Assembly: GCF_014635345.1 (NCBI RefSeq)
Contig: NZ_BMCU01000001.1
Location: forward strand, 1,054,001 to 1,118,000
DNA from: Rhodococcoides trifolii
GTDB lineage: Bacteria; Actinomycetota; Actinomycetes; Mycobacteriales; Mycobacteriaceae
DNA: 64,000 bases
Reading direction: 5' to 3'
How positions within the stretch are numbered: position 1 is the first letter of the stretch; every line of letters begins with the position of its first letter. The notes under the pieces were generated by a model. The model was not told where the DNA came from. It did not search any database and worked only from the letters and a program-made list of their open reading frames with translations. Of this stretch, positions 1,884 through 22,465 are shown one piece after another. The translations under genes and the position numbers were made by a program.

Positions 1884-3010
1884 CACCGAACCCGGAAGAG
1901 GTCCCCCTCTGCTCCCGCGACGAAGGTCCCGCCGGCGGCCTCGACACGCTCACGCATGTTGATCAGACCGCTACCGGGACGAGTGGTGTCCACCCCGGAA
2001 CGTGCCCCGTCGTTGACGATCTCCACGACTGCGCCGTCCACGGTGATGGTGCACTCGGTGGCCTCCGGTGCGTGCGCGAGGACGTTGGTCACCGCTTCCC
2101 GCACCACCCACGCTGCGCTGCGCGCACTCGTCTCGTCCAGGTCCGCGCCGCCGTCCCCGTCGACTTCCGCGAGAATCGACGCGGACCTGAGCAGCATCAG
2201 AGCGTCGTCGAGTTCGGTCCCGATCGCGATGTCGCGGTAGCCCCGCACGAGGGCGCGCATGTCGTCGAGCGAACGTTGCGCGAGTGCGCGGGTATCACGC
2301 ACGTGATCGTCCTTTTCGTCGATGTCGGCTGTGGCCAGGGCCAATTCGGACTTGAGGGCGATCGAGGAGAGCGACCGGCCCATCACGTCGTGCAGATCGC
2401 GGGCGAAGCGGGTGCGCTCCTGTTCCAGGGTCAGCACGGCGATGGTCTGCCGGGCGCCGTCGAGTTCGCGCACGATGCCGAGCACCCAGAGGGACAGCCG
2501 GACGAACACCAGGTTGAAGAACATCGACCCGGCGAAGAAGAACAGCGCCGCCGGCTGACCGGTCAGAGCCAGGCACAGCGGAACGGCGACCACCGACGCG
2601 AGAACGCCACGTGTGGTCGAGACGAGCGCGAAGGCGAACGCGACACAGATGACGATCAGCGTCGACTGCCACACCAGACCCCGGTACGCACTCACGCCGA
2701 TCACGGCCGACACGGCGCCGACGGCGAGCGCTGCGGCCGCGTAGATCCACACGCTGCGGCGGAACGCGCGTGTCGGTTTCACGTCGGCACGAGAGGCGCG
2801 CACGATCAGGTAGGAGAGCCCGAGAAGTGCGGCCACGGTGAGCGCGAGGCACACCCAGGTCGAGACCAGGTGAAACCGCAGCTCGCTACGTCCGATCAGG
2901 GTCGCGATGTCTCCCCAGGCGAGGATGAGCAGCGTCGCTGCGACGTAGAGCCCGCCGAGGTTGAGATAGCGCCGCTCGGGACGTTCACCCGGGACATTTC
3001 TCATGTTCAT
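1811..3010 (-). CDS. Two-component sensor histidine kinase, NarL/DesK-like family
   Basis: Membrane sensor kinase of 399 residues. About five or six hydrophobic segments fill residues 20-180. A HisKA_3 dimerisation helix follows, with RFARDLHDVMG giving phospho-acceptor His207, then an ATPase domain with an N-box (REAVTNVLAH) and a G-box (GSGLINMRER). It should phosphorylate the regulator encoded at 3344-3949. Start codon 3010 (MNMRN) or 3004 are both possible. The gene lies downstream of its regulator on the same strand but is separated from it by an oppositely oriented small gene. Its position between two RiPP systems suggests control of bacteriocin production or immunity; that is inference. 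Confidence 0.9.
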   Translation of the reverse strand: MNMRNVPGERPERRYLNLGGLYVAATLLILAWGDIATLIGRSELRFHLVSTWVCLALTVAALLGLSYLIVRASRADVKPTRAFRRSVWIYAAAALAVGAVSAVIGVSAYRGLVWQSTLIVICVAFAFALVSTTRGVLASVVAVPLCLALTGQPAALFFFAGSMFFNLVFVRLSLWVLGIVRELDGARQTIAVLTLEQERTRFARDLHDVMGRSLSSIALKSELALATADIDEKDDHVRDTRALAQRSLDDMRALVRGYRDIAIGTELDDALMLLRSASILAEVDGDGGADLDETSARSAAWVVREAVTNVLAHAPEATECTITVDGAVVEIVNDGARSGVDTTRPGSGLINMRERVEAAGGTFVAGAEGDLFRVRCQFSRQRAARVDAVRAMGSGSSSV

Positions 3011-3101
3011 CTCCTGACCTTGTGCACTAACCGAACGCCCCGCGCACGAGAAAAGTGGACAGCACGAACCCGGTCGTCACCTCAACGAAAGGAAAGTTGC
3101 C

Positions 3102-3338
3102 ATGTCGCACTTCACCAAGGACGTCATGAAGTTCGGACCCGCCCCCACGCTGGCGCGCGAGATCCCCGTGACCATCGCCAACCTGCTGTTCTCGATTCTC
3201 GCCGTTGCCGTCATCATCGCCGTGCAGGGCGGTGTGGACGCGGTCGTGATCGTGGCCGCCGTCGTGCTCGTCGGGTACTCGCTCGGCCGTACGGCCTACG
3301 TCGCTCTCCGCGGTCAGCGGACGGCCGGCCACAGCTGA
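3102..3338 (+). CDS. Small membrane protein, 78 aa, embedded between response regulator and kinase genes
   Basis: Family not recognised. The protein has a short polar N-terminus (MSHFTKDVMKFGPAP), two hydrophobic segments (about residues 24-40 and 46-60) and a basic tail (RTAYVALRGQR), so a two-helix hairpin membrane protein is likely. A good ribosome site (AAAGGAAAG) precedes the ATG. The gene is divergent from the kinase (91 bp apart) and nearly abuts the regulator 3' end (5 bp). The placement suggests a target of the two-component system or an accessory to it, possibly immunity; neither is shown by the sequence. Confidence 0.7.
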   Translation: MSHFTKDVMKFGPAPTLAREIPVTIANLLFSILAVAVIIAVQGGVDAVVIVAAVVLVGYSLGRTAYVALRGQRTAGHS

Positions 3339-3343
3339 GGCCG

Positions 3344-3949
3344 TCACGCCCAACCCTTCTCGACCGCCAACCGTGCAGCTTCGTGACGGTTGCGGGCCCC
3401 GAGCGTGGACATCGCGGAGGACAGGTAGTTCCGTACCGTACCCACCGCCAAGTGCAGCTCCTTCGCGATGTCCGCCACCGGAGTGCCGGGGAGAACCAAC
3501 TTGAGCACCTCGATCTCACGGGGGCTCAGCGGGTTCTCCGGCGCGGCGATCACTGACGCGGCGAGCTGCGGATCGACGTAGGACTGGCCGCCGGCAACCC
3601 GCACGATGATGTCGGACAACTCGTTCACCGCGGTGGACTTCGTGACATATCCACTGGCTCCCGCGGACATCGCCTCACGCATGGTCGAGGCGGTCACGCT
3701 GGCCGTCAGAATGATCACCTTGACTCCCAGAGGCGCCAACTCGGCGCACGCCTCGATGCCGGTCATGATCGGCATGTCCGCGTCGAGCAGCGCGATGTCG
3801 GGAGTGTGGGCCTTGGCGAGCGAGACGGCCTCGGCGCCGTTCGCGGCACCACCCACCACCGACAGGCCCGGCCGCAGATTCAACAGTTCGACGAGAGCCG
3901 ACCGAATGGTCACCTCGTCGTCCGCAACGACGATTCGTAGATCCCCCAC
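3344..3949 (-). CDS. Response regulator, NarL/LuxR family
   Basis: DNA-binding response regulator of 201 residues. The receiver domain carries acidic residues Asp10/Asp11, phospho-acceptor Asp56 (ALLDADMP), the switch Thr near 83 (ILTAS) and Lys near 105 (YVTKS). The C-terminal LuxR helix-turn-helix is seen at LSPREIEVLKLV and VADIAKELHLAVGTVRNYLS. The start is GTG (MGDLRIVVADDE). It is the cognate partner of the kinase at 1811-3010. The architecture matches DesR/LiaR-type membrane-stress regulators. Promoter sequence must lie in 3950-4020, immediately beside the strong hairpin at 4022-4054. Confidence 0.92.
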   Translation of the reverse strand: MGDLRIVVADDEVTIRSALVELLNLRPGLSVVGGAANGAEAVSLAKAHTPDIALLDADMPIMTGIEACAELAPLGVKVIILTASVTASTMREAMSAGASGYVTKSTAVNELSDIIVRVAGGQSYVDPQLAASVIAAPENPLSPREIEVLKLVLPGTPVADIAKELHLAVGTVRNYLSSAMSTLGARNRHEAARLAVEKGWA

Positions 3950-4021
3950 GCCAGTGAACTCGTTTCGCCTAGGAAGAGAAGAACGCTTCGAAGCTTATCG
4001 CCCCGAAGCAGTCTCGGCCGG

Positions 4022-4054
4022 AAACCCCGCACACACCCCTCGTGTGCGGGGTTT
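4022..4054 (+). terminator. Strong intrinsic terminator or attenuator
   Basis: A 13-bp perfect stem (AAACCCCGCACAC pairs with GTGTGCGGGGTTT) with a 7-nt loop is followed by a T-rich tract (TTTTTTCTG) on the plus strand, a canonical rho-independent terminator. No plus-strand gene ends close by; the nearest is the small membrane protein ending at 3338. It either ends a long 3' UTR antisense to the regulator gene or attenuates a leader of the class V operon that starts at 4240. Confidence 0.8.
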
Positions 4055-4173
4055 TTTCTGTTCCTGCCGCGCATGACATTTCGCACCCGAGATCAGTGAT
4101 CCAACACCTGCAAAGGACGTCACTTCGACACTGCCGCACCTGCTTTCGGTCGAGCAATATCGATGTCAGCACA

Positions 4174-4220
4174 GAGACGACGAACCACCGAGACGACGAA
4201 CCACAGAGACGACGAACCAC
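4174..4220 (+). repeat. Three tandem direct repeats of GAGACGACGAACCAC
   Basis: Three identical 15-bp units begin at 4174, 4190 and 4206, so the period is 16 bp (about 1.5 helical turns). They end 20 bp before the GTG start of the first class V gene. A matching 16-mer (ACAGAGACGACGAACC) occurs once more near 50472. Candidate operator iterons for the operon, or a small dispersed repeat. Confidence 0.75.
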
Positions 4221-4239
4221 CGAACGAAAGGACGAGGTC

Positions 4240-5271
4240 GTGACGATCGCAGACGTGGACACCGCACTGGTGTCGGAACTGATCGGTAAGGCGGACATCG
4301 TCACGCCGATGACGATCCGCGCCGGCGTCCGGACGGGATTGTTCGACGCCCTCGCCGCAGGACCGCGTGACGCCGTCGCCGTGACCTGCGCCATCGGAGG
4401 CGACCGCCGCGGAGTGCAGGTGGCCCTGGACCACCTCGTCCACGAAGGCCTCATCGACGCCGACACGACGGGCACCTCGCTCACCACCTACTCCTTGACT
4501 CCGCTCGGCCGGCTGCTCACTGCCGAGCATCACGAGCTCGGGGTGCGGGACCTGCTCGACACCTCGACTCTGGTGGGTCGCAACGAAGTGGCCCTGACCG
4601 ACTTCCATCACACCGTCCTCACCGGACGTCCCGCCTCGGAGGCATCGACCGGCCGCACGCTGTGGCAGGAAATCGACGACGAGGAGGGATGCGTCGACGC
4701 CTTCGAGTGGGACGAACCGGGATTCGCCGCGGAGTCCGTTCTCGGATCCGACGTGTGGAACGACGTCGAGACCGTCGTCGATCTCGGCGGCAACACCGGA
4801 TCGCTGCTGCTGGCCCTGCTGACGCGATACCCGCATCTGCGCGGCACCGTCCTCGACTTCCCGGTCTTCGCCGACCGTGCGCGCACCCGCGCCGTCGAAC
4901 GTGGACTCGGTGACCGACTCCGCGGCGCCCACGGCAGCTTCTTCGACCCGCTTCCCGTCGGACACGACGTGTACCTGCTCTCCGCCGTCCTCGCCGATTG
5001 GAACGACGACGACGCGACGGCGATCCTTCGCCGCGCGGCCGAGGCCGCCGGCGACCACGGCCTTGTGGTCGTCGCCGAAGTTCACCTGATCGCCGACGGC
5101 ACCCTCGCGCCCACCACCTCGGTCGCCGTCCGGATCGAAGGATCGGTCACCCGGCCCGACCGCACGGCCGACGACGTCGCCGAGCTCATCCGCCGCGCCG
5201 GATTGCAGATCGAGTCGTCCGACACCTCGGCTGCGGACCGGTCCCTCTTCATCGGGAGAAATGCATCATGA
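4240..5271 (+). CDS. SAM-dependent methyltransferase of the class V lanthipeptide operon
   Basis: Class I methyltransferase of 343 residues with the architecture of small-molecule O-methyltransferases: an N-terminal winged-helix dimerisation domain (VTPMTIRAGVRTGLFDAL) and a Rossmann SAM-binding motif VVDLGGNTG near residue 178. The frame is open to 4042, but that would read through a terminator and the repeat array. GTG at 4240 has GAAAGGA at 4226-4232 with 7-nt spacing, so it is the chosen start. It overlaps the kinase gene by ATGA. In lexapeptide and cacaoidin pathways a methyltransferase dimethylates the peptide N-terminus; the same job is inferred here. Confidence 0.85.
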   Translation: MTIADVDTALVSELIGKADIVTPMTIRAGVRTGLFDALAAGPRDAVAVTCAIGGDRRGVQVALDHLVHEGLIDADTTGTSLTTYSLTPLGRLLTAEHHELGVRDLLDTSTLVGRNEVALTDFHHTVLTGRPASEASTGRTLWQEIDDEEGCVDAFEWDEPGFAAESVLGSDVWNDVETVVDLGGNTGSLLLALLTRYPHLRGTVLDFPVFADRARTRAVERGLGDRLRGAHGSFFDPLPVGHDVYLLSAVLADWNDDDATAILRRAAEAAGDHGLVVVAEVHLIADGTLAPTTSVAVRIEGSVTRPDRTADDVAELIRRAGLQIESSDTSAADRSLFIGRNAS

Positions 5272-6329
5272 CCGACATCCTCGAGCACTTCCACGCGATC
5301 TCGCACGAGCACGCGCTGGGAACCGCACCCCGCACCGCCGGCGACCGACTCTTCGGTCGCAACGCCAACTACCGCATCACAACCGACACCGGCGACTACT
5401 TCATCAAGAAGCTCCAATTCTCAGACGCCGCAATCAAAATGGAGAACTGCCTCGCCTACGACAGCTTCGTCTCGCGCCACCCCGCAGCGGGATTGCCTCG
5501 CTCGCCGCGGATCCTCGCGGTCAACGCAGAACTGGGCATCATCGTTCAGGACTTTCTGCCACACGCGGAGAACGGCAGCACGCTGATGGTCGAGGAACGC
5601 TTCGCCACCACCGTCGCAGCAGACATCGGCCGCTCGATCGCCGGTCTGCACGCCCGGCCCACGTTCGGAGTGCCCGATCGCGACGACCGACCCACGCCGG
5701 CACCGTCGACGACTCTGCTGGCCGGCATTCCGCACCGCCACCTCCGGCATCTCACCGGCGGCGAGCTGCAGGCGTACGGACTCCTCCAAGCCGACGCCAC
5801 GCTGTGCGCGGCACTCGCCGACCTCGCCCGGACGTCGAACTCGGTCGACAGGACTCCCATCCACGGTGATCTCCGCGTCGATCAGATCCTCGTCGACGAC
5901 CGCACCTGGATCGTCGACTGGGAAGAATTCGGCACCGGAGACCCGGCACGTGACACCGGATCGTTCCTGGGTGAGTGGCTCTACCGCGCCGTCCTGGACA
6001 TCCCCACCAGCCGCGGCGGCGGGGCCGCCATGAACCGGGCCGAGGGCGCCGCCGCGGTGGTCCGTCGCGGACACGAGAAGGCGCAGCTGTTGGCACCCAT
6101 CGCCCGCGCGTTCTGGTCCGCATACCGCGGGGCACGCGACGTCGACGACGAGTTCGTGGCGCGCACAGGACAATTCGCCGGCTGGCATCTGCTCGACCGC
6201 CTCGTCGCGGGCGCCGCCACCAACGCCGTGCTGCCCGCGATCCATCGCGCCGCCGCGGGAGTGGGACGCTCCGCCGTTCTGAATCCCGCAGGTGTGCACC
6301 GCTTCCTCGGATTGGAGGACCTGTCATGA
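5268..6329 (+). CDS. lanK: APH-fold kinase, class V lanthipeptide LanK
   Basis: Aminoglycoside-phosphotransferase-fold protein of 353 residues that should phosphorylate precursor Ser/Thr, so that the HopA1-like partner can eliminate phosphate to dehydro residues. The N-lobe Lys lies in YFIKKLQF. The catalytic loop is IHGDLRVDQIL (about 5857-5890) and the metal-binding motif is IVDWEEFGTGDPARD. The loop has Gln where most APH proteins have Asn. ATG at 5268 overlaps the upstream stop; the longer frame from 4998 is antisense-like filler and was discarded. Pairing with the HopA1-like gene directly downstream marks the class V system. Confidence 0.88.
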   Translation: MTDILEHFHAISHEHALGTAPRTAGDRLFGRNANYRITTDTGDYFIKKLQFSDAAIKMENCLAYDSFVSRHPAAGLPRSPRILAVNAELGIIVQDFLPHAENGSTLMVEERFATTVAADIGRSIAGLHARPTFGVPDRDDRPTPAPSTTLLAGIPHRHLRHLTGGELQAYGLLQADATLCAALADLARTSNSVDRTPIHGDLRVDQILVDDRTWIVDWEEFGTGDPARDTGSFLGEWLYRAVLDIPTSRGGGAAMNRAEGAAAVVRRGHEKAQLLAPIARAFWSAYRGARDVDDEFVARTGQFAGWHLLDRLVAGAATNAVLPAIHRAAAGVGRSAVLNPAGVHRFLGLEDLS

Positions 6330-7297
6330 CGACCACTCGCTGGGACAGCCGCATCCGGATCGACACCGAGGCAGTCATCGCCACCGTCGACGGTGAGAGC
6401 GTATCGGCGCCCGACCTCCGTCAGCTCGAGTCCGACCTCGGCCGCCGCCTTTACGAACGCCTGCACGTCGGCTGGCCGATCGGCCGAAACTCGTTGTCGC
6501 GCATCGATCGTGACCCGGCCACCGAGAGCGCGATCGCCGACCGTCTCCCGCGCCGCGAGATTTCGCTTCCCGTGACCGACGTTCGCGTCGACGGCGATCG
6601 CACCACCGGGTCCGTCATGGGCGCGCGGGTACTGCTGGACTCTCCCGAGCCCGTGTTGCGTATCTCGGACAGCTGGCCGGCGCTGTCGCCGGGTTTCTAC
6701 ATGGTGTTCGGCGACGAGCGACCACGAGCGACGGGTCGGGACGCCCTCTGGCGGGTCTACCTCGCGGCCGACGGCATCGACGCCGCGCTCGACGACTTCG
6801 CACTCGCCGTCGGATACCTGCGGACACACGGTCGCAGATGGCAGGCCAAGATCGCGTCGACCCCGGCGGTCTACCCCCGCACCGACGCTGTGACCGTGTA
6901 CCTCGACCACACCGACCGCCATCATGCGAGCATGCTCGCCGACCTTGTCGGATCCGTCACCGGACGCTGGAACCGCGTGTCGGCCTTCGTGACCGAGCTC
7001 GCGCCCGGTGTCGGATTCGCCCAGGAACCGGCCGACCCGGATCCGACCCGACGCGGCTTGAGCTACGGCCAGCACCGCGCGTCGATCGTGGCCCGCGCCG
7101 CCCTGACCCCCGGCCTCGACCTCGCCGCGGCACTCTCCGCGGCCGGCGTCGACCCAGTCGAGTACTGGCGCAACAGTGTTGCCGACAAACACGGTGTTAC
7201 CGAAAAACACCTTGTTGCCGACAAGCACAGTGCGCCGGCAACCCCCACACTTCTCGCCGCGCCCGCGGCGAGTGGCTCCGGACACCGTGTCCGGTAG
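6326..7297 (+). CDS. lanY: HopA1-like phospho-Ser/Thr lyase, class V lanthipeptide LanY
   Basis: Protein of 323 residues in the HopA1 effector-like family, the proposed lyase that removes phosphate from pSer/pThr to give Dha/Dhb in class V lanthipeptides and thioamitides. Recognisable blocks are LYERLHVGWPIGRNSLSR, PGFYMVFGDE, WRVYLAADG, WQAKIASTPAVYPRTDAVTVYL and GLSYGQHRASIVA. GGAGG at 6314-6318 supports ATG at 6326. The C-terminus departs from the family: an 18-bp repeat encodes three VADKH-type units, then a low-complexity Ala/Pro tail. The gene ends 20 bp before the first precursor. Confidence 0.88.
   Translation: MTTTRWDSRIRIDTEAVIATVDGESVSAPDLRQLESDLGRRLYERLHVGWPIGRNSLSRIDRDPATESAIADRLPRREISLPVTDVRVDGDRTTGSVMGARVLLDSPEPVLRISDSWPALSPGFYMVFGDERPRATGRDALWRVYLAADGIDAALDDFALAVGYLRTHGRRWQAKIASTPAVYPRTDAVTVYLDHTDRHHASMLADLVGSVTGRWNRVSAFVTELAPGVGFAQEPADPDPTRRGLSYGQHRASIVARAALTPGLDLAAALSAAGVDPVEYWRNSVADKHGVTEKHLVADKHSAPATPTLLAAPAASGSGHRVR
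7178..7231 (+). repeat. 18-bp in-frame tandem repeat in lanY 3' end
   Basis: Three 18-bp units (7178-7195, 7196-7213, 7214-7231) encode VADKHG, VTEKHL and VADKHS. Units 1 and 3 are near-identical; unit 2 has diverged. The repeat is lower in GC than its surroundings and sits at the end of the conserved HopA1-like domain, so it is an added C-terminal extension that may vary in length between strains. Confidence 0.75.
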
Positions 7298-7317
7298 CAA
7301 ACAAGGAAGGAATCATC

Positions 7318-7461
7318 ATGAGCAACAAAGACATCCTGGACGGCTTCGACTCCTACGCCACGCCCGAGGAGATCGCCGACACCAACGCCGGTGACGCACC
7401 TGCCACCACCGTTCCGTGCTCGGCGCTCGCCTCGATCACCACCGCCGAACTCGGCTGCTGA
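7318..7461 (+). CDS. lanA1: Class V lanthipeptide precursor A, copy 1 (47 aa)
   Basis: Precursor with acidic leader MSNKDILDGFDSYATPEEIA and predicted 18-residue core TTVPCSALASITTAELGC after ...GDAPA. The FDSYATPEEI block resembles, from memory, the leader of the cacaoidin precursor, and [S/T][S/T]xPC followed by a C-terminal Cys matches its core plan. Thr1/Cys5 could form an N-terminal methyllanthionine and Thr13/Cys18 an AviMeCys ring. The ribosome site GAAGGAATCATC is shared among the first three precursor copies. The protein is identical to copy 3 (7699-7842), but the DNA differs at seven synonymous positions. Confidence 0.93.
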   Translation: MSNKDILDGFDSYATPEEIADTNAGDAPATTVPCSALASITTAELGC

Positions 7462-7510
7462 GCAACACCTTCCGCACACCCACCGAACAAACCACTCGAA
7501 AGGAATCATC

Positions 7511-7660
7511 ATGAGCGAGAACACCAAGGACATCCTGGACGGCTTCGACTCCTACGCCACGCCCGAGGAGATCACCGACACCAACGCCGCCGACACCCCG
7601 GCCACCACCATCCCGTGCTCGGCCCTGGCGTCCTACGCCTCCGCCAAACTCACCTGCTGA
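7511..7660 (+). CDS. lanA2: Class V lanthipeptide precursor B, copy 1 (49 aa)
   Basis: Second precursor type. The leader MSENTKDILDGFDSYATPEE is two residues longer than type A, and the predicted core is TTIPCSALASYASAKLTC. It keeps Thr1, Thr2, Pro4, Cys5, Ser6, Ser10 and Cys18, and Ser13 replaces Thr13, so the C-terminal ring would be AviCys rather than AviMeCys. Position 15 is Lys where type A has Glu. AAAGGAATCATC precedes the ATG. It lies 49 bp downstream of copy A1. Confidence 0.93.
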   Translation: MSENTKDILDGFDSYATPEEITDTNAADTPATTIPCSALASYASAKLTC

Positions 7661-7698
7661 CCGTCCCCTCCACCGCAGCACCAGCGAAAGGAATCATC

Positions 7699-7842
7699 AT
7701 GAGCAACAAGGATATCCTCGACGGCTTCGACTCCTACGCCACGCCGGAGGAGATCGCCGACACCAACGCCGGCGACGCACCCGCCACCACCGTTCCGTGC
7801 TCCGCGCTCGCCTCGATCACCACCGCCGAACTCGGCTGCTGA
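7699..7842 (+). CDS. lanA3: Class V lanthipeptide precursor A, copy 2 (47 aa)
   Basis: Encodes a protein identical to the peptide at 7318-7461. Seven third-position changes and no amino-acid change separate the two genes, which indicates an old duplication held by purifying selection on both leader and core. The same GAAAGGAATCATC ribosome site lies upstream. With the next gene it forms the second A-B pair, so the array arose by duplication of a two-gene unit. The longer frame from 7615 is not needed and runs back into the previous gene. Confidence 0.93.
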   Translation: MSNKDILDGFDSYATPEEIADTNAGDAPATTVPCSALASITTAELGC

Positions 7843-7895
7843 GCACACCCCTCGCATCACCCTCCATCGGAAAAGAACACGAAAGGAACACCGAA

Positions 7896-8045
7896 ATGAA
7901 CGAGAACACCAAGGACATCCTCGACGGCTTCGACTCCTACGCGACGCCCGAGGAGATCACTGACACCAACGCCGCCGACACCCCGGCCACCACTATCCCG
8001 TGCTCGGCCCTGGCGTCCTACGCCTCCGCCAAGCTGACGTGCTGA
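7896..8045 (+). CDS. lanA4: Class V lanthipeptide precursor B, copy 2 (49 aa)
   Basis: Same as precursor B copy 1 except Ser2 to Asn in the leader. Seven other differences in the DNA are synonymous, and the predicted core TTIPCSALASYASAKLTC is unchanged. Its ribosome site (GAAAGGAACACCGAA) differs slightly from the other three. It closes the precursor array and is followed by a long imperfect hairpin (8083-8142) before the tailoring genes. Confidence 0.93.
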   Translation: MNENTKDILDGFDSYATPEEITDTNAADTPATTIPCSALASYASAKLTC

Positions 8046-8082
8046 TCGGGTACTGACCGCGCGAAATCCCATCGCTTCGATG

Positions 8083-8142
8083 CCGCCGACCGTCGCCGTG
8101 CCCTGCTTCATACGAACGCAGGCATGGACGGCGGGACGGCGG
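8083..8142 (+). terminator. Imperfect intra-operon hairpin after the precursor genes
   Basis: GC-rich arms (CCGCCGACCGTCGCCG... and ...GGACGGCGGGACGGCGG) flank a TTCATACGAAC loop closed by CTGC/GCAG. There is no T-tract. In many lanthipeptide operons such a structure lets precursor mRNA accumulate above the enzyme mRNA by partial termination or 3' protection. That role is inferred here from position and foldability. Confidence 0.5.
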
Positions 8143-8186
8143 CACCGGGCGGGGATCGCTGACACCCACTACGAGCGAGGACTGCC

Positions 8187-9182
8187 ATGACCACCCCGAC
8201 GATCCGACTCTCCGCCTACAGCCCCTACTCCGGCCCGCACGTGCAGGACGCGGCCTGGTGGGTCGCACTCGGCGCGTCCCTCGGACTCGAGCGGGTCTGG
8301 TTCGGCCAGCAGTCCTCCGTCTCCGTGCTCGGCGGCGTCGGATACGCCGCCGGCCGAGGCCACCGCGTTCCCGTCGGCTCGGCCGTCACCCTTCTTCCCA
8401 CCACGACACCGTTCGCGTCCGCACTCGAGTTGCGTTCGCTCGCACAGCTCTCCGGCTCGACGGTGTCCGCCTACTTCTCGCCGGGATACCCGGCGATCCA
8501 GCACGCGCTCGACGGCCGCCGCTGGCCGAGCCCGCTCACCGCGACGCGAGAGTTCTTCGCGGCGCTGCGCGGTCTGCTCGCCGGCGCCGACGTCAGCGAG
8601 CGCGGCGACTACTACTCCACCACCTTCACCAGCCCCGCCGAGGACGTCACGTCGTCCGTCGAACTCGGACTCGGCGTCCTGCGGCCCGCGATGGCGCGGC
8701 TCGCCGGCGAGATCGCCGACGGCGCGGTGACCTGGCTGTCGTCGCCCGACTACCTGAGCGAGGTACTCGTGCCCGCGCTGCACGACGGCGCTGATTCCGC
8801 GCACCGGGCCGCACCGCGCGTGGTGGCCACTCTGCACGCCGGCGTCGGCGTGGACCCGGCGGACGCGGTCCAGGTGGTACGCACCGGAATCGGACCGCAC
8901 CTGTCGGCGCCGCACTATCGAGACATGTTGACGCGCAGCGGTCTTCAGCTCGACGGACCGGTGACCGATGCCGACGTCCGAGCGGTGATCGACCGTCGTC
9001 TGTTCGTCGTCGGTGACGCGCTCGACGTCGCCGCCCGCGCGGCGGAACTCGCCGACGCCGGGGCCGACGAGGTCAGTGTGGTTCTGCATGACGCGCCCGG
9101 TGCCACCCGCGACGACATCCGGCGGGCATGGACCGATGTGGCGTCGGCGGCCCACCGTTCGACCGAAAGGACAGCAGCATGA
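8187..9182 (+). CDS. LLM-class F420-dependent reductase, LanJ(C)-like
   Basis: Luciferase-like TIM-barrel oxidoreductase of 331 residues (APYSG-type start, LERVWFGQQSS, GSAVTLLPTTTP, YFSPGYPAIQHAL). In class V pathways (LxmJ of lexapeptide) this family uses F420H2 to reduce dehydroalanine to D-alanine. Conserved core Ser6 and Ser10 in all four precursors are natural substrates after dehydration. ATG at 8187 follows GAGCGAGGA. It overlaps the decarboxylase gene by ATGA, so it is translationally coupled to it. Function in peptide tailoring rests on family plus context. Confidence 0.82.
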   Translation: MTTPTIRLSAYSPYSGPHVQDAAWWVALGASLGLERVWFGQQSSVSVLGGVGYAAGRGHRVPVGSAVTLLPTTTPFASALELRSLAQLSGSTVSAYFSPGYPAIQHALDGRRWPSPLTATREFFAALRGLLAGADVSERGDYYSTTFTSPAEDVTSSVELGLGVLRPAMARLAGEIADGAVTWLSSPDYLSEVLVPALHDGADSAHRAAPRVVATLHAGVGVDPADAVQVVRTGIGPHLSAPHYRDMLTRSGLQLDGPVTDADVRAVIDRRLFVVGDALDVAARAAELADAGADEVSVVLHDAPGATRDDIRRAWTDVASAAHRSTERTAA

Positions 9183-9706
9183 ATCTCACCATCGTCGTCA
9201 CCGGCGCCGTCAGTTCGGCGTTCATGCCGTACTGGGCCAACTGGATTCGGATGCAGCGCCCCGACATCGCGACGCACTACCTGCTCACACCGTCGGCGGA
9301 GAAATTCGTCAGCGCCGACGCCATCCGCACCGTCAGCGGGGGCGACGTCGACACCGACTCCTGGCAGGGTCTCACCGATCCGCTGCACGTCACCCTCGGC
9401 GACTGGATGGACGCCATGGTCGTCTACCCCTGCACCCTCAACTACTTCTCGCGATTGGCTCTCGGCGTGGTCGACTCCCCGTCGCTGCTGGCGCACGCGT
9501 GCACCGACATCCCCGTCGTGGTCGCGCCGTCGCTCCCACCCGGCGCGTACGAGAACGAGCCGTACCGGATGCACCGTGCGGCGCTCGAAGACCGCGACGA
9601 CGTGCTGATCGTGGAGCCCACCCCCACCCGCAGTGCCAGTTCACCGCGTCCGGCGTACGGCGCTGCGCCGATGCCCGATTGCATCCAGAGGATCGATGCC
9701 GCATGA
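9179..9706 (+). CDS. lanD: LanD-type flavoprotein peptidyl-cysteine decarboxylase
   Basis: HFCD flavoprotein of 175 residues that should oxidatively decarboxylate the C-terminal Cys of the precursors to an enethiolate, the precursor of Avi(Me)Cys. Visible motifs: VTGAVSS at the FMN site, active-site His in DPLHVTLGDW, PCTLNYFSRLALG in place of the usual PASANT region, and PSLPPGAYENEPYRMHRAAL at the substrate clamp (PxMNxxMW in other members). All four precursors end in Cys, as this enzyme needs. GAAAGGA lies 7 nt before the ATG; the gene overlaps both neighbours by 4 bp. Confidence 0.88.
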   Translation: MNLTIVVTGAVSSAFMPYWANWIRMQRPDIATHYLLTPSAEKFVSADAIRTVSGGDVDTDSWQGLTDPLHVTLGDWMDAMVVYPCTLNYFSRLALGVVDSPSLLAHACTDIPVVVAPSLPPGAYENEPYRMHRAALEDRDDVLIVEPTPTRSASSPRPAYGAAPMPDCIQRIDAA

Positions 9707-10614
9707 GTACCGACACGCTCACCCCTGGTCCGTTCGACGCGGCGGTGTCCTACGGCACCGCGATCCGGACCACCCACATCGAGCCGGCGCGGCGGGGTCG
9801 GTGGCAGTGGACGCGCACCGCACCGCTCGAGCGGCACCGGTTCTCCTCCGGGCTGTTCACCGTTCCGCCCGCGACAGCGCGTGCATCCGGTCCGGGGCCG
9901 CGCTTCGCGGTCGGTGCCGGCGACACCGGCCGCCGGGCGTACGCGCTCCCGGCCGGGGAGTCCCTGGCGTCGGTCGTGTTGTCCGGGACCGCGTCGGACC
10001 GGGACTGGCCCGCGGTCTACCGACAATGGGGAATGTTGTTGGCGTCCCTGCACTCTCGCGGCGCCACTACGCTCGACACCGCCCCACCGGCTCGCGCACG
10101 AGTGCAAGAATGGTGGGCGCACCCGACGCCGGAAGACACCCGTCGGGCGACGGCGCGCCGGTCGTTCCTCGACGCCCTGACGGACTCGGCACGCGAACAC
10201 CTCGACGACCTTCTGGCCGTCGACCTCGCGGCCGCGCGCGTGCTGGTGCACGGCTGGGCGGGCCTCGGTCTGAGTGTTCAGGACGCCGCGGGCGACGTGG
10301 TGGTTCTCCTCGGTGAGGACGTGGGTTGCGCGCCGGGTGAATACGACCTCGGGGCCTTGATCGCGCAGTCCGTCGAGCTGGCAGTGTTCTCCCCGCCCGG
10401 GACCGCCCCGTCGCCCACTCTCGTCCGCGATGCGCTGCTCGACGGATACGACCGTCCCGCCGACCGGCAGGCGCTGGCCGATCACACCATCGAGCACGTG
10501 GTGCGGCACGTCGCCGACTTCGCCCAGTTCTCCGACTTCGACGACGGCGAGCTTCCTCGGTGGGCCGCGTTGGTGAACTGGTTGGACGCGGGCCGCAGGA
10601 GGCTGACCGAGTGA
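9703..10614 (+). CDS. Degenerate APH-fold protein (putative pseudokinase) of the class V operon
   Basis: Protein of 303 residues with a weak APH-like layout. Where an active kinase has HGDLxxxN, this has VLVHGWAGLGLSVQD; where it has the DxE metal site it has LGEDVGCAPGEYDLG. The catalytic Asp is Trp, so phosphotransfer looks unlikely. Between an LanD and a peptidase in an LanK/LanY operon, it may be a scaffold or leader-binding subunit, or fill the slot of the poorly understood third class V protein (LanX-like). Fold assignment is from pattern only. The ATG overlaps the upstream stop. Confidence 0.65.
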   Translation: MSTDTLTPGPFDAAVSYGTAIRTTHIEPARRGRWQWTRTAPLERHRFSSGLFTVPPATARASGPGPRFAVGAGDTGRRAYALPAGESLASVVLSGTASDRDWPAVYRQWGMLLASLHSRGATTLDTAPPARARVQEWWAHPTPEDTRRATARRSFLDALTDSAREHLDDLLAVDLAAARVLVHGWAGLGLSVQDAAGDVVVLLGEDVGCAPGEYDLGALIAQSVELAVFSPPGTAPSPTLVRDALLDGYDRPADRQALADHTIEHVVRHVADFAQFSDFDDGELPRWAALVNWLDAGRRRLTE

Positions 10615-12554
10615 TCGTGTCGGACGTCCATTGCCGCAACGGGATCCGCTCGATCGTCCTCGATCGTCCGGGTAGCTCGGCCGTCGAGATCGCATCGGTC
10701 GTGCGCGCAGGGTCACGTCACGACCCGCCGGGCAGGATCGGCACCGCGCACCTCACCGAGCACCTCCTCACCGTCGGTGCCGACGACGTCTCGCGCGGGG
10801 TGGAATCTGTCGGCGGCTCGTTCGCGGCGACCACCCACCCCGATCACATGCAGTTCGTGACCACCGCGCCGGCGGGCCTGTGGAACGACCTGCTCCTCGC
10901 CGATGTGAATCGCGTACACGGTCGAATGATGCTGCAGAAGAGCGATATCGACGCCCAACGGGTGGCGGTGGCCGAGGAGATTCGGGCCGCCGCCGCGTCA
11001 CCGTCCCCCTGGCCGGGCATGACCGGGGCGCTCCACGGCGGCGACGACGCCCTCGGTCACGACGGCTTCGGCGAGATCGCCGATCTGGACCGGATCGATC
11101 TGGCGGTGTGCACCCGATTCGTGAGCGCCGTCGTGCGCCCGGAACGCGCCGTGATCGTCGTGGCGTTGGACGTCTCGTCCGCGGGCGGTCCGGCGCGCAT
11201 CCTCGACGTCGTCGACAGCGTGCAGCCCGCCCCCGCCCCCGCCCCCGTCGCCGCCGCGGGCCCGGTCCGCGACGCCTACCCGACCAGCACGCTGGGCAGC
11301 CCGCACACGGCGACCGGTAGCGGAGTCACCGCCACCTGGTGCGGATGGAGCGTCCCCGGCCTGTCCCGTTCGACCCGTGACCATCTTCGGTGGTTCGGCG
11401 CGGCGGCGGTCCTCGAACAACGTTGTGCAGGATACCGATTCGGCCGCTCCGGAGTCGGACACGTCGGCGACCGGGAAACCCTCGCGGTGGCAGGGGGGTC
11501 CGTCGAGAATATCCTCGAGCTCCTGGAGGCTCCCGTCACTGTGTCCGAGCACGAACACGCACGTCGTCGGTTACGCGGCGCCGCAGTGGACTTCGAGCAC
11601 GACCCGGCGTCGATCGCCCGACTGGCTGCCTTCACGGACGCTCCGACGGTCCGGTGCCCTAGTCTCGATCGCAGCGACCTCGACCACGCGCTCGCCCGGC
11701 TGCGGTCGACGACCCCCGCCGTGGTCACACCCGATCCCGACGCCCCCGTCGACAGATCGGCGAGGCCGAGTTCCGCGCAGGCGCCGCAGTCGACCCGTCG
11801 ACGACCGATCGAATTCGTACACAACACGATCGGATCGACAGCCCGCCGGCTGAATGTGTGCGGTCCGCACGCGGCAGCGCTCGAGATGGACGGTCCCACT
11901 TACGTCTGTGTCCGAACCCCGGCGCCGTTCCGTTCCCCCCTGTGGGAGAGAGTGACCGACTTCTCCGGGCATCGGTACGCCACCCGAACCCAGTCGACCG
12001 AGCAGCTGGCGCACGCACTGGACCACCTGCCCGACACGGTCTCCGAACTCGCCGCCGTCGGCGCCGACGCCGGTGCGGCGTTGCGTCGCCGCGTTGCCCC
12101 GCATCGAGGCGACGGGATATCGACACGAGCGGGCGCGGCGCGCTGGCTCGCCCTCGGCGCACTCAACTCGGTCCACCGGATTGCCCTCGGCCACGCACCG
12201 ATCGTGCGGGTGCTGCGACTTCCGACGCGTCCGCATCCGACCGTTCAGCTCGTCGGGGACCCCGGGATCGACCTGCACACCCTCGTCGACGGGTGGACCC
12301 CCGCGGAGCTCGACCGGACGAGGACGTTCTGCGCCGGCCAGGCCCTGAGCGCGACCGCGACCGGCCGCGACACCGCGGACCTGCTGCTGACGTTGCTCTG
12401 CAACGACATTCGCGTCGACGGGGACCCCGTCGAAAGCTTCGCCTCGTCGCTGCTCACCACCGGCGACGGGGAGATTCGCGCCGCCGCGCACCGCGTGCTG
12501 GAGATGACAAACGTCATGTCGGCCGGGTGCGGAACCTCCGGGCAACTGTCGTGA
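10611..12554 (+). CDS. M16-family zinc metallopeptidase, probable leader peptidase
   Basis: Protein of 647 residues. The inverted zinc motif HLTEH (His47, Glu50, His51) is followed 71-72 residues later by EE at 122-123, matching M16 (insulinase/PqqF-like) geometry, so the N-terminal half looks catalytic. The C-terminal half should be the inactive M16-like domain that closes the chamber. GTG at 10611 has AGGAGG at 10597-10602 with 8-nt spacing and overlaps the upstream stop. Removal of the precursor leaders (before ...PA/TT) is the inferred job. Confidence 0.8.
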   Translation: MIVSDVHCRNGIRSIVLDRPGSSAVEIASVVRAGSRHDPPGRIGTAHLTEHLLTVGADDVSRGVESVGGSFAATTHPDHMQFVTTAPAGLWNDLLLADVNRVHGRMMLQKSDIDAQRVAVAEEIRAAAASPSPWPGMTGALHGGDDALGHDGFGEIADLDRIDLAVCTRFVSAVVRPERAVIVVALDVSSAGGPARILDVVDSVQPAPAPAPVAAAGPVRDAYPTSTLGSPHTATGSGVTATWCGWSVPGLSRSTRDHLRWFGAAAVLEQRCAGYRFGRSGVGHVGDRETLAVAGGSVENILELLEAPVTVSEHEHARRRLRGAAVDFEHDPASIARLAAFTDAPTVRCPSLDRSDLDHALARLRSTTPAVVTPDPDAPVDRSARPSSAQAPQSTRRRPIEFVHNTIGSTARRLNVCGPHAAALEMDGPTYVCVRTPAPFRSPLWERVTDFSGHRYATRTQSTEQLAHALDHLPDTVSELAAVGADAGAALRRRVAPHRGDGISTRAGAARWLALGALNSVHRIALGHAPIVRVLRLPTRPHPTVQLVGDPGIDLHTLVDGWTPAELDRTRTFCAGQALSATATGRDTADLLLTLLCNDIRVDGDPVESFASSLLTTGDGEIRAAAHRVLEMTNVMSAGCGTSGQLS

Positions 12555-12598
12555 ACTCGCACTACCCGCAGCAGTCCGACCGACGAAGGATGGGAAAC

Positions 12599-13558
12599 AT
12601 GACTACAGCACCCGCCCCGGACGTGGTCGTGGCGTCCGGCATCGACTACCACTACGACGAATATCACGCCGTCCGCAACGTGTCGCTGACGGTTCGCCGC
12701 GGGGAGATCTTCGCCCTGCTGGGCACCAACGGTGCCGGCAAGACCACCACTCTCGAACTGCTGCAGGGCTTTCGGGGCCGCACGTCGGGGGACCTGACGG
12801 TCTTCGGCGTGGACCCGCACGCGGACCCGGCGACGGTGCGTGCACGGACCGGCGTCGTGCTGCAAGAGTCCGGTCACTTCGGTGAGATCACCGTGCGCGC
12901 CGAGCTGACGATGTGGGCGTCGCTGTCCTCGCGAACCGACTCCGTCGACCGTGTTCTCGACCTCGTCGAGCTCACGCACCGGAGCGACAGTCGCATCGAC
13001 TCCCTGTCCGGCGGGGAACGCCGCCGCCTGGACCTCGCCATGGCCATCTGGGGGAGCCCGGAACTGATCGTTCTCGACGAACCGACCACCGGTCTGGACC
13101 CCGAGTCGCGCCGCACCCTGTGGGGACTCGTGGAGCGTCTGCGCGACGAGGGAACGACGATCATCCTCACCACCCACTACCTCGAAGAGGCGGAGGAGTT
13201 GGCCGACGTCGTCGCGATCATGCACCAAGGCGCTCTGGCCGTACACGGCACGCTCGACGAGGTCCTCGCGTCGCGTCCGTCGCGAATTCAGGTCGACGTC
13301 CGGCCGGCCGACGGTGAGGCGCTGATGGCGTCGGCTCCCGAGGGTGTTCACGCATCGTGGGACACCCGCCGGCGGCCCTCGGATCCCACTCTTCGTGTGC
13401 TCGAGATCGTTGCGTCGGACCAGCAGAAGGCACTCACCTGGACGCTCGGCACGGCGGACCGTCTCGGCCTCGACCTCGGTCCGCTGCGCGCCAACCCTGC
13501 CTCGCTCGACGAGGTCTTCCACCACGTCAGGAACGCCACACAGGAGGTAACGGCATGA
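12599..13558 (+). CDS. ABC exporter ATP-binding protein (lantibiotic/drug type)
   Basis: ATPase of 319 residues, DrrA/CcmA-like: Walker A GTNGAGKTTT, Q-loop LQESG, signature LSGGERRRLDLA, Walker B ELIVLDEPTTGLDP, H-loop LTTHYLEEAEELAD. The C-terminal ~90 residues form the regulatory extension common in ABC-2 exporter ATPases. ATG at 12599 is favoured by GAAGGA at 12585-12590; an in-frame ATG at 12590 overlaps that site. It works with the permease encoded 4 bp into its 3' end. Likely exports the mature peptides or gives self-immunity. Confidence 0.9.
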   Translation: MTTAPAPDVVVASGIDYHYDEYHAVRNVSLTVRRGEIFALLGTNGAGKTTTLELLQGFRGRTSGDLTVFGVDPHADPATVRARTGVVLQESGHFGEITVRAELTMWASLSSRTDSVDRVLDLVELTHRSDSRIDSLSGGERRRLDLAMAIWGSPELIVLDEPTTGLDPESRRTLWGLVERLRDEGTTIILTTHYLEEAEELADVVAIMHQGALAVHGTLDEVLASRPSRIQVDVRPADGEALMASAPEGVHASWDTRRRPSDPTLRVLEIVASDQQKALTWTLGTADRLGLDLGPLRANPASLDEVFHHVRNATQEVTA

Positions 13559-14367
13559 CCACCACGGAGGATCGCCGCATGCAGACGGCGCCCGCACCCA
13601 CCCGCCGACTTTCCGGGTGGGCACGGACCCGCCGGATGACCGCCTTCGAGACCGGCATGATCTTCCGTCAGCGCAACACCCTGCTGGCGACGGTGCTGGC
13701 ACCCGTGTTCGTCCTGTTCTTCCCGGTGATCTCGCCGCCCACGGAAGACGCCGCATGGACCATCCTGATGGCACCGATGACCGTGCTCGTGTTGGTGTTC
13801 TCGGTGTACATCAACGGCGCGACGATCGTGGCCGCACGACGCGAGAACCAGGTGCTCAAGAGGTTGCGGACCAGCGAGCTCACCACGACGCAACTGCTGG
13901 TGTCCATGACAGCTCCGCTCGTCGGGCTCGGAATCGTGCAGGTGGGCATCGTGCTCGGGGGAGTGAAGCTGCTCGGCGGTCCACTCCCGGCCCACCCCGC
14001 GGTCATCGTCACGGCGGCGCTCGCGACGGCGCTGCTCTCCGTGGTCGCCGGTGTCGCCATCGGTTCCATGTCGCCGAACAGCGAACGGGTGCAGTACGCG
14101 GTGATGCCGCTCCTTCTGCTCGCGGCCATCGGCTCGAACCTGCTGATGTCGCCCGGTGTCGACCCGGAGGTGCGCGGTTACCTGCTGTTCGCTCCGTTCA
14201 CCGGGGCGGTGGATCTGGTCGCACGTTCGGCCGAGGCGCAGCCGATGCTGCCGACGCCGCCGCTTCCTGTGTCGCCCATCGTGTTCGACCTCGGCATCAC
14301 CGGTTTCTGGATCGCCGCCTTCGCCCTGATTGCCGCAGCCACGTGGCGTTGGGAACCGCGCCGATAA
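13555..14367 (+). CDS. ABC-2 type exporter permease
   Basis: Membrane protein of 270 residues with about six hydrophobic segments, including ATVLAPVFVLFFPVI, ILMAPMTVLVLVFSVYI, PLVGLGIVQVGIVL and AALATALLSVVAGVAIG. The RENQVLKRLRTSE block after the second helix is typical of ABC-2 permeases. GGAGGTAACGGC precedes the ATG, which overlaps the ATPase stop. It forms the export or immunity transporter with 12599-13558 and is the last gene of the class V operon; a 12-bp perfect hairpin follows 18 bp later. Confidence 0.88.
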   Translation: MTTTEDRRMQTAPAPTRRLSGWARTRRMTAFETGMIFRQRNTLLATVLAPVFVLFFPVISPPTEDAAWTILMAPMTVLVLVFSVYINGATIVAARRENQVLKRLRTSELTTTQLLVSMTAPLVGLGIVQVGIVLGGVKLLGGPLPAHPAVIVTAALATALLSVVAGVAIGSMSPNSERVQYAVMPLLLLAAIGSNLLMSPGVDPEVRGYLLFAPFTGAVDLVARSAEAQPMLPTPPLPVSPIVFDLGITGFWIAAFALIAAATWRWEPRR

Positions 14368-14385
14368 GGGGCACTGCCGGACAGC

Positions 14386-14414
14386 TACCGCCCAGTCGAT
14401 AAGACTGGGCGGTA
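14386..14414 (+). terminator. Perfect 12-bp hairpin at end of class V operon
   Basis: TACCGCCCAGTC and GACTGGGCGGTA pair perfectly around a GATAA loop. There is no T-tract. The last base of the hairpin is the first base of the ATG (14414) of the next gene, so it can both end the RiPP operon and sequester the start region of the hydrolase. A dimeric-protein operator is an alternative reading. Confidence 0.6.
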
Positions 14415-15043
14415 TGCCATTCTTCGACGGGGCCCGAGGGCGAGTCCACTACCGCACGTGGAACGCCGCAGAACCCCATGCCGACCTCGTGTTCCTGCAC
14501 GGCCGCGGCCAGCACAGCGGGAACTACCACCGCTTCGCGGGCCTGCTCGCCGCCCGCGGGATCTCCACGTGGGCGCTCGATCTGTACGCCCATGGCCTGT
14601 CCGAGGGCGACGCGGAGGGTCTCGACGCCGACCCGATCGTCACCCTGGACGGCCTGGTGGCCGACGCGGCGCATCTCGCGACTCTCCCGGACTCGGGCCG
14701 GCCGCTGGCCTTGATGGGGCATTCGCTGGGAACGGCCACCGCCGTGCCGCTTCTGGCACGGACACCGACCGTCTTCTCCTCGGCGGTGTTCTGCGCTCTC
14801 CCGACCAGGCTGGTGGACCCGGACACTCTTGCCGGAGCGGACGCCACGGGTGTGCCGATCCTCGTGGTTCACGGCGTCGACGATCGCATGGTCCCGATCG
14901 ACCCGGTGCGGTCGCTGGTGGGGGAGCGGACCGGCGCGCAGTTCGTCGGATACGACGACGCCGGCCACGATCTGCTGCACGAGAAGGTGCATGCGACCGT
15001 GACCGGCGACGTGGCCGATCACATTCTGCGTTACGCCCCGTAG
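14414..15043 (+). CDS. Alpha/beta hydrolase (monoacylglycerol lipase-like)
   Basis: Serine hydrolase of 209 residues. Catalytic triad: Ser in MGHSLGTA, Asp in VHGVDDRMVP, His in DDAGHDLLHE; the oxyanion region is FLHGRGQHSGNY. The Hydrolase_4 layout suggests a lysophospholipase or monoglyceride lipase. ATG at 14414 is the natural start because the frame upstream is permease 3' sequence and no better ribosome site exists; it may be translated from a very short leader. The 3' end overlaps the convergent fadD by 13 bp. No clear link to the RiPP operon. Confidence 0.8.
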   Translation: MPFFDGARGRVHYRTWNAAEPHADLVFLHGRGQHSGNYHRFAGLLAARGISTWALDLYAHGLSEGDAEGLDADPIVTLDGLVADAAHLATLPDSGRPLALMGHSLGTATAVPLLARTPTVFSSAVFCALPTRLVDPDTLAGADATGVPILVVHGVDDRMVPIDPVRSLVGERTGAQFVGYDDAGHDLLHEKVHATVTGDVADHILRYAP

Positions 15044-22243: not shown

Positions 22244-22465
22244 GATGGTTCTCCCTGTCTGTCGAGACCTTTCATGCTTACGCACCGCGAGCGGTCGAGC
22301 ACGAATCGATGTGACAGGAGTGAACTGTTCGTGATCAGTTCGTGACCGGTGGCGGTCACTCCCGGCTCGGCTCGGCTCAATACCTCCCCACGAAAAGAGC
22401 GCATCCCGAATAATGGCCTGGGCGGGGTATTCAATGGGAAATGCGATGCTCCAGGAAGTGGGCTG

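Follow-up and report, generated by a model that had tools for sequence, protein, structure and literature searches.

Class V lanthipeptide pathways are divided into class Vb, which includes a LanC protein, and class Va, which lacks it. The subject of this report is a predicted class Va operon, together with its neighboring genes, in a 64,000-nucleotide (nt) stretch of Rhodococcoides trifolii DNA (contig NZ_BMCU01000001.1, positions 1,054,001 to 1,118,000; hereafter called the window, to which coordinates refer). The closest characterized product is massatide A, encoded by the mat cluster of Streptomyces leeuwenhoekii, whose core TTVPCTVASFATGYFSC carries rings between Thr1 and Cys5 and between Thr12 and Cys17 (PMC11162475). 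Related clusters are abundant, as 851 putative class Va clusters (PMC12291118) and 1172 pairs of a flavoprotein and a precursor for aminovinyl-(methyl)cysteine, or Avi(Me)Cys (PMC11162475), have been counted. Judged from its genes, window 4240 to 14367 is a complete class Va operon, and taken alone it adds a new member to a family of which hundreds have already been mined. What appears to be new relative to known class Va systems is a conserved union with a class II synthetase, LanM, and a matched pair of equal-length cores, here called E and K after the acidic (TAELGC) or basic (SAKLTC) sequence of their C-terminal ring. Overall, the evidence very probably describes an island of ~17 kb that is mainly a class Va pathway for massatide-like E and K peptides, joined by an adjacent class II peptide. 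The gene identities, active-site residues, precursor architecture, and conservation of both precursor types and of the island are directly supported by the analyses below.

The resemblance to the mat cluster includes a core that opens with TTVPC, as well as K, Y, and X proteins (MatKYX), a methyltransferase, a peptidase, transporters, and reductases of the luciferase-like monooxygenase (LLM) family. Massatide differs in having 17 residues, two LLM reductases, and the single precursor MatA, whereas the present operon has 18-residue cores, one LLM reductase, and four precursors of two types. Furthermore, class II genes are not mentioned for the mat cluster in the accessible text of that report (PMC11162475), whereas a LanA/LanM pair adjoins the operon described here. 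The sistertides and kebanetides of the sis family also arise from two precursors served by one enzyme set, and the sistertides carry either Glu or Lys in the AviMeCys ring, but these peptides are 34 and 26 residues long with three or two Cys (PMC11162475), as compared with 18 residues and two Cys here. The ros cluster for rosin shares K, Y, X, and D proteins, an F420 reductase, an M16 peptidase, multiple precursors, and the cyclase residues of RosX; it is unlike the present operon in having no N-methyltransferase, two M16 genes, and a 25-residue rosin A1 core that was not antibacterial in its authors' tests, according to the accessible text (PMC12291118). Cacaoidin biosynthesis shares a Methyltransf_2-type N-methyltransferase, a HopA1 lyase, and a single M16 protein, yet it yields one glycosylated product from a 23-residue core with the aid of three glycosyltransferases (PMC8068269, PMC9486802, PMC11447909). 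The preliminary description of this DNA had considered the precursor set to be unlike those of cacaoidin and lexapeptide, and we agree, as the cores are massatide-like and paired as E and K.

That description had also named 4240 to 14367 as a complete class V operon. Indeed, all the genes it listed were found, with LanK and both precursor types exceeding their NCBIfam cut-offs and with LanD, the LLM reductase, the methyltransferase, the M16 peptidase, and the ATP-binding cassette (ABC) exporter each matching its own Pfam family. The list was correct in what it named, but it overlooked LanX (9703 to 10614). Nearly all gene junctions had been described as ATGA or GTGA overlaps; by coordinates, this is true for six of 12, namely methyltransferase/LanK, LanK/LanY, LanJ/LanD, LanD/LanX, LanX/peptidase, and exporter ATPase/permease. 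Pfam and NCBIfam scans detect no LanC in the operon, and the sole LANC_like domain of the genome belongs to the neighboring LanM. Because LanD, LanX, and a C-terminal Cys are present in an operon without LanC, the assignment can be narrowed from class V to class Va. The absence of LanM from the operon, also claimed earlier, is literally true, but a LanM gene ends at position 1883 within the same conserved island. Thus, the operon was recognized properly as a unit, whereas the larger unit comprising the class II LanA/LanM genes and their regulators was missed.

LanK and LanY carry the expected catalytic residues. LanK (5268 to 6329; all operon genes are on the plus strand) had been assigned the APH fold, which is borne out by the Pfam APH match (E 4e-17). 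It scores 327 bits against the NCBIfam LxmK model NF038156 (cut-off 315) and matches the kinase chain of Protein Data Bank (PDB) entries 9DK1-9DK3 (E 3e-42), of which 9DK3 is the lexapeptide kinase LxmK (PMC12291118). Residues R31, K47, D201, Q206, and D217 of LanK are the counterparts of R49, K66, D221, Q226, and D241 of LxmK, and the catalytic residues are conserved in 20 or 21 of the 22 rows of a LanK alignment. LanY (6326 to 7297), the putative phospho-Ser/Thr lyase, had been called HopA1-like, and it matches PF17914 (HopA1; E 1e-24) as well as the lyase chain of 9DK1-9DK3 (E 1e-23). Both profiles therefore match the genes named, a comparison that the preliminary description had proposed as a possible refutation. 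The LanY residues R143, K175, R185, and Y192 are spaced by 32, 10, and 7 positions, exactly as are R187, K219, R229, and Y236 of CaoY (PMC9486802). In the wider alignment the same columns have gaps in eight or nine of 22 rows and up to two substitutions; we read the gaps as poor alignment of stop-to-stop frames.

LanD (9179 to 9706), the predicted peptidyl-Cys decarboxylase, matches the Flavoprotein family PF02441 (E 1e-12) and the structure of the cypemycin decarboxylase CypD (6JDD, E 2e-21). LanX (9703 to 10614) is a putative AviCys cyclase for which a kinase-like fold is predicted from a profile match together with conserved Glu, His, and Asp residues. An alignment of 12 candidates, delimited by hand from 22 loci in place of an automatic set that contained wrong overlapping frames, retrieves the thioamitide-pathway protein TvaE from the PDB (8JSU, E 9e-7). 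In the 12 rows, E225 and H269 do not vary and D272 is nearly invariant, and the HGD motif of kinases is replaced by HGW. RosX requires the corresponding triad E220/H269/D272 (PMC12291118). The existence of thioamitide homologues for LanK, LanY, LanD, and LanX, the TvaE match among them, and the likeness of LanD to the cypemycin decarboxylase are the features expected if these genes encoded a thioamitide or a linaridin-like product instead of a lanthipeptide. We regard that reading as highly improbable, given that LanK passes the class V model, that the precursors have an LxmA leader, and that their cores contain a second, N-terminal Cys. In addition, no YcaO or TfuA match occurs among the 10 operon proteins scanned with Pfam, although no YcaO search was made elsewhere in the genome.

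The operon begins with an S-adenosylmethionine-dependent methyltransferase (4240 to 5271; Pfam Methyltransf_2 and Dimerisation; compare Cao4/CaoSC), which is predicted to perform N,N-dimethylation. LanJ (8187 to 9182) belongs to the LLM, F420H2-dependent reductase family (Bac_luciferase, 1.6e-30), and the genome contains the F420 gene cofD, above its cut-off, which points to an ability of the cell to supply this enzyme with F420. The predicted leader peptidase (10611 to 12554; Peptidase_M16) carries the zinc motif HLTEH at residues 47 to 51. It is followed by the exporter ATPase (12599 to 13558; ABC_tran) and an ABC-2 permease (13555 to 14367; ABC2_membrane_3), after which synteny stops; this is the right end of the island.

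Four precursors, the number given previously, lie between LanY and LanJ, but the coordinates of the first are corrected to 7318 to 7461. Precursor A1 is of the E type with core TTVPCSALASITTAELGC, and A2 (7511 to 7660) is of the K type with core TTIPCSALASYASAKLTC. A3 (7699 to 7842) is identical to A1 as a protein, and A4 (7896 to 8045) has the same core as A2, from which it differs solely in the second residue of the leader. The four form an E-K-E-K array within a 178-nt repeat present in four copies. In an NCBIfam scan that covered A1 (equal to A3) and A2, with A4 left out, the LxmA leader model NF038146 (cut-off 25) scored 38.6 bits for the E type and 32.4 bits for A2. When the core is taken to begin at TT, the leaders carry Y-17, P-2, and E-12, along with A-3 in the E type of the window. 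Type-A class V leaders carry these positions (PMC9486802), and this agreement fixes the start of the core.

Both cores therefore comprise 18 residues with an inner N-terminal Cys and a C-terminal Cys. Thr or Ser is found at position −6 relative to the terminal Cys ([ST]X4C) in all 36 precursor C-termini from 21 class V loci, the window included, a count that is weakened as support because the precursors came from a profile that included the core and had the three islands described below among its seeds. These 36 are distinct within each locus, the E core is counted three times, five weak hits not ending in Cys had been removed beforehand, and one locus (L034) gave no precursor ending in Cys. 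This Thr or Ser is the probable Avi(Me)Cys partner. Since the K core of the window has Ser at −6, AviCys rather than AviMeCys is predicted for it. CaoSC needs a dehydrated residue 2 (PMC11447909), and Thr2 of the present cores agrees with this need. For the dimethylated products, the calculated [M+2H]2+ values range, by degree of reduction, from 806.40 to 810.44 for the E type (six dehydrations, decarboxylation, and zero to four reductions) and from 837.93 to 841.96 for the K type. Applied to massatide A, this calculation reproduces the published calculated value of 817.8965.

Complete orthologous loci were found in two other species. L024, in genome G005 of the same genus, has two precursors (E and K), and L025, in genome G160 of another genus, has five (E K K K E). 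Hence both types are present in three of three islands from two genera. The preliminary description would have been contradicted by homologous loci lacking Cys-containing precursors, but both orthologues have them. The E core is identical at 18 of 18 residues in the three species, with four to eight silent and no replacement codon changes between species, whereas seven, seven, and 10 of 26 leader codons are replaced (Fisher p 0.03, 0.03, and 0.003 versus the core; these and the following E/K tests assume independent sites). In contrast, two to four of the 18 K core codons are replaced, and this core is not significantly slower than the K leader (p 1, 1, and 0.16).

In L025, three K copies and one E copy share an identical spacer and leader (0 of 152 nt differ), yet within this group of four the core of the E copy is set apart from those of the K copies by 11 of 54 nt (p 2e-7). 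The fifth copy, also E, differs from the K copies at five of 152 spacer and leader nt and at 10 of 54 core nt (p 0.0008). Near-identical spacers and leaders beside divergent cores suggest that conversion or duplication homogenizes the copies while two cores stay distinct. Moreover, the Ser10 codon is TCC in all K cores and AGC in the E cores of two of the three species; such type-specific silent states, common across species, indicate that the E/K split probably predates the two genera.

These findings bear on whether the E-ring and K-ring peptides cooperate in the manner of the alpha/beta pairs known from two-component lantibiotics of class II; a complex paired by charge at the target membrane would be one example. 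Haloduracin and lichenicidin (named in PMC11162475) likewise have two conserved peptides per locus, but there each precursor has its own LanM, whereas in the present island the two class V peptides would share a single LanKY set and LanM would act on a third peptide. The presence of both types in all three islands, the homogenization in L025 that spares the cores and keeps both apart, and the probable age of the split would be expected of such a pair. The same contrast recurs in the rings TYEWTC and TVKDGC of sistertides A1 and A2 (PMC11162475) and in TYEAGC and TYKDGC of locus L062. However, Glu and Lys both occur at this ring position in just four of the 13 loci that encode two or more ring types, and three of the four are the islands themselves, L062 being the fourth. 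The distant relative L063 has, as far as found, an E core alone, and the sistertides are not reported as needing each other in the accessible text (PMC11162475). The maintenance of two cores would also fit two independent products. We therefore treat a two-peptide system as possible, while leaning against it.

The island extends leftward from the operon, partly outside the window (negative positions lie to the left of it). In order, it contains a 639-amino acid (aa) LuxR-type regulator (~−2969 to −1050, minus strand), a 54-aa class II precursor LanA with C terminus GVPTFSCATFSCL (~−886 to −722), LanM, a histidine kinase, a 78-aa membrane protein, and a response regulator. The C-terminal part of LanM, a class II lanthionine synthetase with DUF4135 and LANC_like domains, occupies 1 to 1883 on the plus strand (the whole gene is likely ~−711 to 1883; LanA/LanM correspond to L064:16615-19384) and scores 328 bits against TIGR03897 (cut-off 304). 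The histidine kinase (1811 to 3010, minus strand; HisKA_3) is 53% identical to its G005 orthologue and 37 to 41% to that of G160, and the LuxR-type response regulator (3344 to 3949, minus strand; Response_reg and GerE) has orthologues of 86.5% and 70% identity. L024 and L025 repeat the order and orientation of these left-island genes, the LanA of G160 being doubtful. LanA was read from plain frame translations, giving 54 aa in the genome of the window and 60 aa in G005; the G160 candidate contains a single Cys and would have to begin at a TTG codon. The 53-aa stretch at L064:16618-16779, which lacks the first residue, has no NCBIfam match.

The island is found in different surroundings in the three species. 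We compared open reading frames of at least 90 aa from ~14 kb to the left and 13 kb to the right of the island with those from the ~17 kb that flank each of the other two islands on both sides. Beyond the island itself, this comparison gave no G160 match at E 1e-12 and a single G005 match, far to the left, with 38% identity over 116 aligned aa.

Whether the class II genes belong to the system can be judged from LanM itself. Among the enzymes it shows the lowest conservation (40% and 28% identity), its G005 and G160 matches are split and fall below the family cut-off, and the G160 precursor candidate is irregular, all as might be expected if LanM were decayed or an unrelated neighbor and only the class V operon mattered. 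This passenger status nevertheless appears unlikely. The DxHxxN, KPRS, WCxG, and CHG motifs of the dehydratase and zinc sites are kept in three of three orthologues, and in each of the three islands LanM marks the left edge. Furthermore, among 22 class V genomes, LanM is within the class V locus only in these three islands, two genomes have it elsewhere, and 17 have no match.

The E, K, and class II peptides could also be two or three independent products that hit different competitors, or one of them could signal to the histidine kinase/response regulator pair, with the island providing shared regulation and export only. To this reading we give slightly less than an even chance. It is consistent with a class II core that changes strongly between species, with none similar recognized in G160, with an E core that is invariant beside a K core whose rate is not significantly below that of its leader, and with a LuxR-type regulator and a response regulator that diverge from LanA/LanM and from the class V operon. 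However, the same gene order and orientation in three islands that share no long flanks suggests more than neighborhood. Also, no LanT-type peptidase-exporter is present among the island proteins scanned, and thus export of the class II peptide may rely on the transporter of the class V operon.

The 78-aa hydrophobic protein (3102 to 3338, plus strand), which by hydropathy probably has two membrane helices, is a candidate immunity protein. It is identical at 59 and 57 of 78 residues to the copies in the other two species, which share 49 of 77 with each other. This identity exceeds that of LanK, LanY, LanX, and LanM, whereas in G005 the values for LanD, the ABC ATPase, and the response regulator are equal or higher. 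No copy occurs in the other loci of the panel, and no match was found in the plasmid collection. Its conservation and restriction to the islands fit immunity to something particular to them. The gene may escape annotation because a longer open frame runs on the opposite strand. That 108-aa minus-strand frame (3027 to 3353), matched in the flank comparison, was dropped as a gene because it overlaps the 78-aa gene.

The most far-reaching form of the hypothesis is a hybrid island that retains two unrelated lanthionine machineries, LanKYXD of class V and LanM of class II, for the production of three cooperating peptides (invariant acidic, variable basic, and class II) protected by one small membrane immunity protein. 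We consider this rather unlikely. Such a set, if real, would have no precedent known to us, either as a two-peptide system of class V or as one of mixed class. Similarly, the titles and abstract openings of the open-access literature searched name no class II/class V hybrid and no two-component class V system. A plain class V cluster would be one more beside the 851 already counted, whereas a conserved class II and class V island with an E/K pair is a testable case of cross-class cooperation. The island may make a small team of peptides, perhaps antibiotics. Among its products would be a relative of the potent antibiotic massatide A with 18 residues and two rings, and one of its genes is a candidate for immunity in a class V producer.

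By homology with the enzymes for lexapeptide, cacaoidin, massatide, and rosin, the class Va pathway would proceed as follows. LanK would phosphorylate Ser and Thr residues of the 18-residue cores and LanY would eliminate the phosphate, reactions established by others for CaoK/CaoY. A (methyl)lanthionine ring would form between Thr1 and Cys5. LanD would decarboxylate Cys18 and LanX would close the Avi(Me)Cys ring onto residue 13, as established by others for RosD/RosX. LanJ may reduce some dehydroalanine to D-Ala, the methyltransferase would dimethylate the N terminus, and the M16 peptidase and ABC exporter would cleave and release the products. The pathway would yield two peptides resembling massatide, of which one is invariant and has Glu in its C-terminal ring, while the other varies and has Lys at that position; the adjacent LanA/LanM would add a class II peptide. 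Beyond the chemistry, antibacterial activity, shared regulation, cooperation between the peptides, and the immunity role of the 78-aa protein are inferred.

Several observations weigh against this account. Products, transcripts, and activity are predicted from the genes, and because rosin A1, made by a similar pathway, is not antibacterial, antibiotic activity is not assured. LanD scores 90 against the CypD equivalog cut-off of 215 in NCBIfam, and LanD, LanJ, and the methyltransferase all remain under the cut-offs of named NCBIfam models, LanJ matching F420 LLM families below theirs. On its own, LanX reaches only E 0.009 against APH, below the Pfam cut-off. Structure models are poor, with a mean predicted local distance difference test score of 42 for LanX (two-row alignment) and 37 for LanK (single sequence). 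Either E225 or E213 may be the catalytic Glu of LanX. We favor E225 for its invariance in the LanX alignment, but its distance to the His is 44 residues, versus 49 in RosX.

A LanY search of 401 genomes of the family gave matches in 18, the genome of the window included. A precursor profile matches two of 37 genomes of the genus (the window's own and G005), one of 23 in the genus of G160, at least two of 400 drawn from the family (G160 and G005), at least four of 397 from the order, and at least five of 394 from the class (the last two counting the window's own and G005). In these large samples, part of the first-look candidates was scored (up to 17 per genome among the matches listed), such that the counts may be lower bounds. 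One of 186 genomes in the family of G994 also matches. The further matches in G681, G646, G994, and G1038 are the distant class V loci L060 to L063, and that in G741 is weak and confined to the core. L063 (G994, positions 2717 to 14707), from another family, has the same enzyme order and one 18-residue E-like core, STPWCATAASVITIEIDC; no methyltransferase, LanM, or K core was found in this locus. A LanK search of genome contigs gave one locus, in Rhodococcus rhodnii.

Among mobile elements, LanY has no phage match, and the LanK and LanY matches in the plasmid collection (28 records each) are all below 60% identity. One such element is the pediocin A plasmid pMD136 of Pediococcus pentosaceus, in which L071 (5908 to 7744) carries LanK-like and LanY-like genes accompanied by a short open reading frame, a serine hydrolase, ABC transporters, and a zinc alcohol dehydrogenase. 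The link between pediocin A and such a gene pair has been noted already (PMC7794033).

A scan for sigma-70 promoters found none (0.6 expected), and no 9- to 12-mer common to all three species was reported for the three intergenic regions. By eye, GAGACGACGAACCAC occurs three times in tandem at 4174 to 4220 with 16-nt spacing, ending ~20 nt before the first start codon of the operon; inspection of the two orthologous intergenic sequences revealed no similar tandem. Finally, to the right of the island, two adjacent similar genes (18717 to 20927 and 22349 to 24709) have translations that read by eye like GGDEF-EAL cyclic-di-GMP proteins.

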